From NCBI GenBank assembly GCA_001552765.1, contig KQ959425.1, positions 1-64,000 on the forward strand: a DNA stretch of 64,000 nucleotides. The letters are read 5' to 3'. How positions within the stretch are numbered: the stretch's first letter is position 1; every line of letters starts with the position of its first letter. The position numbers and the translations under genes were made by a program. Source of the DNA: Bacteroidales bacterium KA00344. Lineage in GTDB: Bacteria; Bacteroidota; Bacteroidia; Bacteroidales; Bacteroidaceae. Below, in pieces: positions 11,998 to 59,322 of the stretch. Below the pieces are notes generated by a model. That model was not told the origin of the DNA. It ran no database searches and saw only the letters and a program-made list of their open reading frames with translations.

Positions 11998-12312
11998 AGA
12001 AGGCGTTTATAGTTTCCTTATGTGGCCATCCGATCTAATCTAAAAAGATGTGCCAATTCTTCTACAAAGATAGCTATTTAATTTTGGATTTGCTCCGATT
12101 TCTGTTCTAAAATTCACGGTCATCGCCAAGTGTCAGGCACAAACAGACATTAACAGTTCGAAATGTATTTGCTTCCGTGTGTCCGTGTTTTATCATGTTC
12201 TTCTCATAATCAAGACAGGAAGCCTGTTGATGGAAATGCAGGAATCCACACTATGATGCTTGTCATGGTGTGCCGGATAAGCCAAAACATACACTGCACA
12301 CCACTCGACATC

Positions 12313-12342
12313 GTCAAGAAAACTTCACTGTAAAGTTGTCTG
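12313..12342 (-). repeat. 30-base repeat block, copy 1 (inverted relative to 59282-59311)
   Basis: The reverse complement of this block matches 59282-59311 at 27 of 30 positions by hand alignment. Both copies lie in spacers that also hold a 22-base-period array. Confidence 0.75.
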
Positions 12343-12425
12343 AATTTTAGGATGCTACAGCAAAACAAAAGTCATTTTCTGCCCATTTTATCGAGATTTT
12401 CATTCCTCTTGTTCATCATGAGTTT

Positions 12426-12513
12426 GCGACTAAGGCCTATTGGCATTGCGGCTAAGCCTTATTCGTGATGCGGTTTGGCTTTTGCCGTGATGTGATTAGG
12501 CCTCAACCACACT
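12426..12513 (+). repeat. 22-base-period degenerate repeat array, locus 1
   Basis: Four consecutive 22-base units start at 12426, 12448, 12470 and 12492. Unit openings are GCGACTAAGGCCTAT, GCGGCTAAGCCTTAT, GCGGTTTGGCTTTT and GTGATTAGGCCT, and units 2 and 3 close with CGTGAT. The next 22 bases (12514-12535) look like an inverted unit, since their complement reads GCGATTGGATATG. Units are degenerate rather than identical, so this is not a CRISPR. The same periodicity recurs at 39.0 and 59.1 kb. Confidence 0.8.
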
Positions 12514-12586
12514 GCCGTTGCATATCCAATCGCAGGGCAGAAAATGGTTACTTTTTTGCCGTTGAGCGCAATTTGTTTGTAAATCT

Positions 12587-12674
12587 CTGTTAGTCAGTAA
12601 ATTGTAAACTATGCGTTATTTTTGCGTATTTTGAGCCATCGCCTTTTCATTTTCAAATACGCAAATTCTGGGAG
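12587..12674 (+). repeat. Shared flanking module B, copy 1
   Basis: Begins CTGTTAGTCAGTAAATTG and continues through ATTTTTGCGTATTTTG to ATTTTCAAATACGCAAATTC. A similar series in the same order is found on the complement of 58961-59036, and the segment TTTTCAAATACGC recurs at 38912-38924. Confidence 0.6.
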
Positions 12675-12740
12675 GACTTTTGTCCATATTTTTCTCCTTA
12701 TTAAATAACGCTACTGATAGGTTTGTTTGGAAATTCTTCG

Positions 12741-31754: not shown

Positions 31755-31796
31755 CGGCTAATGTGGTCTATGGTGTTTAATGTTGGTGGATGGAGT

Positions 31797-32156
31797 TTAT
31801 TCAACAGAGGCTAAATAGGCTTCTTCGTCCATTAAATCGTCCAATTCAGATACGTCGGATAGTTTCACCTTGATAATCCAATTAGCGTTGGCATCTTGGT
31901 TGATGAGTTCAGGCTCGTCTTCCAAAGCCTCGTTCACCTCAACAACGACGCCACTAACCGGACTCATCAAGTCGCTGGCAGCCTTAACGCTTTCTACAGC
32001 ACCGAAGTCTTCACCGGCCGTTACTTCATCATCCACGTCGGGCATATCTACATACACAATGTTACCCAATGCTTTCTGTGCATAGTCGGTAATACCGATA
32101 TAACCAAACTCGCCCTCTACGCGAACATACTCATGTGATTTGCAAAAATAAGTCAT
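31797..32156 (-). CDS. gcvH: Glycine cleavage system H protein
   Basis: A 119-residue lipoyl carrier shuttling the aminomethyl group among P, T and L proteins. The lipoylated Lys lies in GAVESVKAASDLMSPVSG (K near residue 60). The Gly-rich turn and C-terminal acidic tail (SELDDLMDEEAY) are as expected. It lies 22 bases downstream of gcvT and upstream of gcvPA. Lipoylation enzymes are not encoded in this window. Confidence 0.96.
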   Translation of the reverse strand: MTYFCKSHEYVRVEGEFGYIGITDYAQKALGNIVYVDMPDVDDEVTAGEDFGAVESVKAASDLMSPVSGVVVEVNEALEDEPELINQDANANWIIKVKLSDVSELDDLMDEEAYLASVE

Positions 32157-38708: not shown

Positions 38709-38911
38709 CTAAAATGGTTGCAAAATATTGGTTTTATTGAATATTTGCCTACAAATTGTAGTTTCATATTCTTTTGATGTACATTTTGATAGTTTTAAAG
38801 GAAATATTACAGGCTTTTGAATAATACAGTCGGAGGTGTCATTATTAAACATTGAATTTACATGACAAAAGGGTCTTTAATTTTCGCTTATTTTTAAAAG
38901 ACATGAACTTG

Positions 38912-38975
38912 TTTTCAAATACGCGAAAATTGAGCGCATTTTCCAACTTTCTGATACTCACCAGATTAGCGGATT
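38912..38975 (+). repeat. Shared flanking module B-like segment, copy 2
   Basis: Contains TTTTCAAATACGCGAAAATT, then TGAGCGCATTTTCC and CTGATACTCACCAGATT. The first part resembles 12647-12668, and the second resembles 12563-12603 (TTGAGCGCAATTT to CTGTTAGTCAGTAAATT), although the two parts appear in swapped order relative to locus 1. Confidence 0.5.
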
Positions 38976-39015
38976 TTAGGTTGAAGTTGACCGGTTTTGA
39001 ACAAAAAATCGGCTT

Positions 39016-39125
39016 CAATTATATATCTAATCGCACTATGATTAGGGCTTAGGGATGAGGCGGTTAGCGTATAACCATGTTGCGATTAGGGCTTATCCAT
39101 GATGGGAAAAGGCCTTCACGGCAAC
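39016..39125 (+). repeat. 22-base-period degenerate repeat array, locus 2
   Basis: Units start at 39038, 39060, 39082 and 39104, each exactly 22 bases: openings ATGATTAGGGCTTAG, GCGGTTAGCGTATAA, GCGATTAGGGCTTAT, GGGAAAAGGCCTTCA. The preceding 22 bases (39016-39037) read as an inverted unit (complement begins AGTGCGATTAGATAT). It matches the arrays at 12.4 and 59.1 kb in period and core. Confidence 0.8.
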
Positions 39126-39202
39126 ATCGGCATGTTTTTATTTGTCAAAATTTAGAAAAAAATCGCTTATTCTTTAAATTTCAGATGCTATAATGTCAGT
39201 AG

Positions 39203-39251
39203 AAAAAAGCCCCTTTTTTGTGACTTTTTAATGACATAACGGGCTGTTTTT
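39203..39251 (-). terminator. Weak terminator-like hairpin after the small lipoprotein gene
   Basis: AGCCC (39208-39212) and GGGCT (39241-39245) pair, with A- and T-runs outside them. It follows the stop at 39273 by about 22 bases. The stem is short, so confidence is limited. Confidence 0.35.
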
Positions 39252-58841: not shown

Positions 58842-58960
58842 ATTATTTTATTCTTATATTAACTTATGTATCAGACGTTAGTATGATTTATAATGTTGCA
58901 TATAGATTTGATATGCTATTTATTATATTGAAATAACAAGACAAACACCTCTCTATATTT

Positions 58961-59036
58961 CGAGAATTTGAAAATTCAAATTCACTGATGCAGAATACTC
59001 CAAAATAGCGAGTTTTCCATAAGTTACTAACTATCA
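58961..59036 (-). repeat. Shared flanking module B, copy 3 (reverse orientation)
   Basis: On the minus strand it reads CTGATAGTTAGTAACTT, then CGCTATTTTGGAGTATTCTG and GAATTTTCAAATTCTCGAAA. The same series in order appears at 12587-12674 on the plus strand. Confidence 0.55.
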
Positions 59037-59113
59037 GCATGTAAGCCCATGTTATGTCGTTTTTCCGTTTTTAAAGTTTTATTGAAACTTTATCATTAGT
59101 ATTTAACGGCATG

Positions 59114-59201
59114 ATGATTAAGCTGTTATCGTCATGCGAATAAGCTTCATCCGTCCGACGGTTAAAGCCTAACCGCAAGGCGAATGGGCAGCAACGGCAG
59201 A
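59114..59201 (+). repeat. 22-base-period degenerate repeat array, locus 3
   Basis: Units start at 59114, 59136, 59158 and 59180: ATGATTAAGCTGTTATC, GCGAATAAGCTTCATC, ACGGTTAAAGCCTAAC, GCGAATGGGCAGCAAC. Each is exactly 22 bases. It is the most degenerate of the three arrays. Confidence 0.7.
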
Positions 59202-59281
59202 TGGGTGCTCATATATTGACTGAAATATTGAGATTTGGTGGGCATCAAATTGGTATTATTGTGCTGGAACGTCTAAAAATA

Positions 59282-59311
59282 CAGACAAGTTTATAGTGAA
59301 GTTTTATTGAC
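59282..59311 (+). repeat. 30-base repeat block, copy 2
   Basis: Begins CAGACAAGTTTATAGTGAAG; 27 of 30 positions match the complement of 12313-12342. It lies 11 bases from the end of the HAD gene, so the block might act in its 3' end. Confidence 0.75.
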
Positions 59312-59322
59312 AATTTAGAGTA

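Follow-up and report, generated by a model that had tools for sequence, protein, structure and literature searches.

The window analysed here is a stretch of 64,000 nucleotides from a 3.04-Mb draft genome (G000) of a Prevotella of rumen type; among named relatives, the one nearest to a flanking protein is from a rumen Prevotella. Three spacers of the window each contain a copy of the same repeated element, organised as a head, an array of 22-bp units and a tail. The features are as follows, with genes called by simple ORF length and with model E-values that are rough.

12308 to 12698, plus strand: element copy 1, whole (head, array and tail), with ligA (minus) and a 221-aa ORF (plus) as neighbours; E=3.1e-69 with a profile made without the window copies, full-profile match at 12309 to 12696
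12308 to 12385, plus strand: head of copy 1, terminal repeat and next conserved block, including the 30-mer at 12313 to 12342 (copy alignment)
12422 to 12542, plus strand: array of copy 1, 22-bp units (about five, imperfect), dyads at 11-bp intervals
12583 to 12698, plus strand: tail of copy 1, corresponding to module B of an earlier note (alignment)
38850 to 39248, minus strand: element copy 2, inverted, head decayed, with thrA (minus) and a 145-aa ORF (minus) as neighbours; the independent profile covers positions 108 to 394, E=4.8e-34
38850 to 38965, minus strand: tail of copy 2 (alignment)
39024 to 39122, minus strand: array of copy 2 (profile; also TRF, period 22)
58926 to 59321, minus strand: element copy 3, inverted, with yccF (minus) and a HAD phosphatase gene (minus) as neighbours; independent profile, E=5.6e-57
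58926 to 59041, minus strand: tail of copy 3 (alignment)
59089 to 59205, minus strand: array of copy 3
59240 to 59321, minus strand: head of copy 3, including 59282 to 59311

By alignment, the tail of copy 1 is made up of a CTGATTATCAG-type dyad, an inverted repeat (GCGTATTT..AAATACGC) and a terminal TTTGTC. A short 20-bp tandem repeat (2.1 copies) at 31759 to 31799 of the window is unrelated to the 22-bp arrays.

The earlier note on this DNA had described a match of 27 out of 30 positions between 12313-12342 and 59282-59311. The count is correct, although the match is to the reverse complement and not, as had been claimed, to the plain complement; the best 30-mer match among 40 shuffled spacer pairs was 22/30. 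The recurrence of module B (12587-12674) in inverted form at 58961-59036 and 38912-38975 is borne out, and only a part was seen at copy 2 because the head of this copy has decayed. The profile made without the window copies recovers all three loci (rounded E-values of 3e-69, 6e-57 and 5e-34), and the loci do share more than their 22-base arrays, each of the three being the whole ~395-bp element. However, the suggestion of a mosaic of modules changed in order and strand fails, because the head-array-tail order is identical in the three window copies; it is constant in every other copy as well, and only the entire element is flipped. A search of the same genome with the three spacers gave about 20 to 25 places each, which align as one colinear element. 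The note was right in proposing an element family, which is dispersed, non-coding and far larger than three loci, with at least 150 matches to the tail model in G000, but recombination or shuffling of its parts is not supported, the order being constant and the arrays of G000 never lying outside the head-tail frame.

The element is a single non-coding, intergenic unit of ~395 bp with direct-repeat ends, a conserved head and tail and an array of about five 22-bp units, and this anatomy is constant across alignments of dozens of copies. In the consensus of 74 copies the head reads ATTTGTAAAATATGATTACCATTTTTCGGTGATTATTTTC..CATCCAGCGCAAAAAGGGCTATGTTT, the array units are of the kind TGCGATTAAGCCCTAACCGCAA and the tail reads CTGATTATCAG..AATTTTCGCGTATTTCGGACGAAAGCAAATTTATTTTTAAATACGCGAAATATAAAGGGGTGTTTGTAAAGAAAATTAACCA, with variable stretches on both sides of the array (between head and array, and between array and tail). 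The ends of the element are TTTGT[AC]AA. Head and tail ends agree at 14/20 positions in direct orientation, a level reached by 16 of 56,635 other 20-mer pairs, and within a copy the head and tail resemble each other slightly more than they do in shuffled pairs (p=0.017). Terminal inverted repeats are absent, the best inverted 16-mer between the end regions matching at 11/16 positions and lying away from the termini. Successive dyad centres of the array are spaced by 11 bp, and half-sites therefore alternate about once per helical turn. In the arrays of G000 and of a second genome, G016, dyad pairing is fully accounted for by column composition and within-copy covariation was not found; such symmetry would resemble that of protein sites rather than hairpins.

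Arrays in G000 occur only within the head-tail frame, and some arrays in G016 have no recognisable head or tail. One copy (locus L125, G000:C112:109303-112842) is split by ~3 kb between array and tail. The ORFs of this insert read, by eye, as ahpC/ahpF-like and not as transposase, which speaks against an autonomous version of the element inside the split copy. At the junction on the tail side lies an inverted repeat containing GTTCGGGATAAG; this 12-mer is also found near a few other copies in G000 and G016. At L051:791-867, near an element but outside it, there is an Rfam match to BTncRNA_FopS, a Bacteroidetes sRNA family (62 bits, gathering score 56).

Sampling of 1.113 Mb of G000 as long stretches yielded 81 copies, or one per 13.7 kb, from which about 220 per genome are extrapolated. 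Runs of 100 N with duplicated edges were observed inside element copies at L010, L011, L013, L019 and L050; the element therefore breaks assemblies, and the copy number given may deviate slightly from the true one. Copies in this sample are essentially all intergenic, and in five contigs inspected copy by copy all were so, save for overlaps with short spurious-looking ORFs. Gene context is neutral, with tandem, convergent and divergent gaps occupied in background proportions and no orientation bias. No element matches were found in plasmids and phages.

The placement of the copies relative to each other is strongly ordered. In G000 only two neighbour pairs lie closer than 6 kb, compared with 26 expected for an equal number of copies put at random into intergenic gaps (two intergenic nulls), and the spacing has a CV of 0.41 compared with 0.92 expected, with 0 of 5000 shuffles being as even. 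The 5th and 95th percentiles of the spacings are 7 and 21 kb, and by percentile comparison the copies are placed a little more evenly than a pure hard-core model predicts. The closed genome G016, with 138 tails, has one gap below 4 kb where ~18 are expected (24 with regional density kept), and its gaps extend to more than 100 kb; exclusion is therefore evident here, yet a maximum spacing is not. The same tendency was found in genome G075 (0 gaps below 3 kb vs 3.7 expected, p=0.02). The exclusion is seen in the static distribution of copies. Deletion between direct repeats does not explain the spacing, because close inverted neighbours are missing like same-strand ones (no inverted pairs below 4 kb). 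The sole clear close pair in G000 (L109, G000:C134:14755-16070) consists of two copies ~1 kb apart on the same strand. Copy density stays flat as distance from the single perfect parS grows (23, 29, 23, 19, 24, 20) and strands are mixed with respect to replichore, so that neither an origin-terminus gradient nor a KOPS-like strand polarity is present. To our knowledge, dispersed repeats in bacteria are usually scattered or clustered, and even spacing is rare.

Positions of the element change between species. Among 44 syntenic gaps compared between G000 and G016, four hold the element, each in one species only, and none is shared; in all four the partner gap is much shorter than the filled one, at 14 vs 753 bp, 368 vs 1185 bp, 152 vs 731 bp and 192 vs 855 bp. 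Conservation at orthologous positions is at most weak upstream of genes (odds ratio 3.9, p=0.06) and was not found downstream. A few loci may nevertheless be common to both genomes, as in two cases the same gene has an element upstream of it in identical orientation. The earlier note had asked whether relatives lack the modules at orthologous spacers, and this is so for the ligA spacer: six relatives have the divergent gene pair too, but with a spacer of 122-428 bp and no tail, compared with 827 bp here. On a shorter evolutionary scale, genomes G046 and G546 (94% identical) have all six comparable copies in common, with no fresh insertion among them, and identity is 85-89% in the element, 92% in the flanks and 95% in coding sequence. 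As the element diverges at least as much as its flanks and all six copies are common, the copies look unconstrained and their insertion not recent.

Of 120 genomes sampled from the genus (as in the GTDB genome collection), 63 have tail matches, several having at least 30 and others none or one; the profiles behind the calls in other species were trained on G000 or G016. The element is absent or undetected in many relatives, and with this tail model no other genus of the family gave a match at the threshold used (only one genus out of 22 being positive). Throughout the genus the head and tail can still be recognised, while the array unit is replaced between species, being GCGATTAAGGCCTAATCGCAAT-like in G000, ATTTGACGCAAATTACCNGGTA-like in G016, CTTGCGAAGAATGCAAT-like in G075, AAGGAGCTATGCTTTTAAGCGT-like in G118, AAAAGCTATGCTTTTACAAGGT-like in G012 and CAAAAGCATAGCTATTGGCAGC-like in both G046 and G546. 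The 22-bp period is present in 9/9 genomes compared, being weak in the single copy of G298, and dyads occur every 11 bp in both genomes tested (G000 and G016), the units of which are unrelated. Two array types were observed within G546 (L262-L264), one G000-like and two G046-like.

The element has ~220 copies per genome, short-range repulsion and positions that change between species. Repulsion without an evident upper gap limit, turnover of positions, drift of copies and a dyad array taken together are explained most simply by a mobile element with a zone of poor targets around each copy. It is tentatively proposed, as the best of several readings and at somewhat less than an even chance, that the element is a non-autonomous mobile element, with the array as a putative protein-binding lattice and with copies repelling new insertions nearby. 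A dimeric DNA-binding protein, with a specificity differing by species, would find a lattice of sites in the array; the bound protein would turn the surrounding 5-7 kb into a poor insertion target, in a manner similar to transposition (cis-) immunity; and copies would drift after insertion. The cis-immunity of Mu is strongest near 5 kb and reaches the bulk level from ~7 kb (PMC7350765), and a repulsion over 5-7 kb is therefore realistic. Confidence is restrained because inverted ends and a mobilising enzyme are missing, and neither an autonomous copy nor a recent insertion was found. DDE transposases with known immunity use terminal inverted repeats.

A possible though less probable explanation is a chromosome-organising site, where a nucleoid or topology protein, possibly gyrase, would bind to the array and selection would keep copies ~8-13 kb apart as domain borders. 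The even spacing is near the 10-kb scale of supercoil domains (PMC3420936), and copies are orientation-free and intergenic with a density that is flat from parS to the opposite pole. Furthermore, E. coli BIME-2 binds gyrase, which prefers phased A/T-G/C sequence (PMC6379681), and 16 of 20 arrays from other species have an 11-bp A/T periodicity (p<0.05 vs shuffles). However, the main A/T period of G000 arrays is 7.3 and not 11, so that gyrase-type helical phasing as a universal rule is unsupported in G000. Also against this explanation, species with ~71% protein identity do not have loci in common, the element changes no more slowly than its flanks, G016 has long copy-free gaps and in many species of the genus detectable copies are few or absent. 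A lattice bound by a dimeric protein is a putative feature of both the mobile-element and the chromosome-organising readings. Slightly less probable is the wider form of the latter, a genus-wide chromosome-spacing element in which a fixed-geometry lattice of alternating half-sites, placed every ~8-13 kb to organise the chromosome, would be re-specified in each species together with its binding protein.

Site-specific integration is unlikely. Here the direct terminal repeats (TTTGTAAA..ATTAnCCA) would be attachment-site-like and a tyrosine recombinase would insert a circular form. The direct 14/20 match of the ends, the likeness of a copy's own head and tail and the absence of inverted repeats agree with this, as does the presence of TTTGTAAA at both ends in G016, but integration alone does not account for repulsion, a circular form was not seen and the empty sites are highly diverged. 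Regulatory cassettes, the second option of the earlier note, or transcription terminators for neighbouring genes are improbable: copies do lie in wide intergenic gaps, and promoter activity has been described for BrickBuilt segments of P. gingivalis (PMC4596501), but the neutral gene context and orientation go against such a role, as do a placement that is not conserved and an even spacing that would not be expected. A structured RNA gene family, to which the tail inverted repeats and array dyads could point, is dismissed, as RNAalifold on the element alignment gave essentially no common structure (-0.14 kcal/mol), covariation was not found, and Rfam gave no match in the window and, at ten other loci, none above gathering score overlapping an element.

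Whether mobile, as is preferred here, or chromosome-organising, the element repels its own kind over 5-7 kb, and its array is exchanged for another sequence between species without departing from an exact 22-bp period. As a natural, countable system it lends itself to testing insertion immunity against a chromosomal need as the source of the spacing, and it hints at a yet-to-be-found DNA-binding protein in gut and rumen bacteria.

No description of the element was found in the literature searched, most subscription papers being outside its coverage. MITEs are likewise short, non-coding, multicopy and intergenic with filled and empty sites, but the element is not a standard MITE because its ends are direct repeats and terminal inverted repeats are absent. 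The binding sites of MuA and TnsB are 22 bp long. Transposition immunity of Mu, Tn7 and Tn3 resembles the repulsion seen here, with an exclusion range of about 5-7 kb for Mu (PMC7350765); the element differs from these in having no inverted ends, and because of this and as no transposase was found, the analogy with Mu and Tn7 is one of behaviour only and not of membership. REP/BIME sequences are also intergenic, present in more than 100 copies and built of palindromic units (PMC3733652, PMC6379681), whereas the element is a fixed frame of ~395 bp in which 22-bp units stand in tandem and 11-bp dyads alternate, and its copies repel. BrickBuilt of Porphyromonas gingivalis, as described in the available part of PMC4596501, has a similar layout of leader, tandem minisatellite and tail, is intergenic and multicopy in the Bacteroidales, and also has assembly gaps at its sites, with a size of about 0.1-1 kb. 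However, its unit is the 23-nt AGAYCATARTATCCTCTCRTRTG, unrelated in sequence to the 22-bp unit, its unit number varies from 1 to 22.8 in place of about five, its ends are IS5-type inverted GAGACC.. and not TTTGT[AC]AA, and its 19 copies are far fewer. Even spacing and replacement of the array between species, which that part of the source does not describe for BrickBuilt, are features of the present element.
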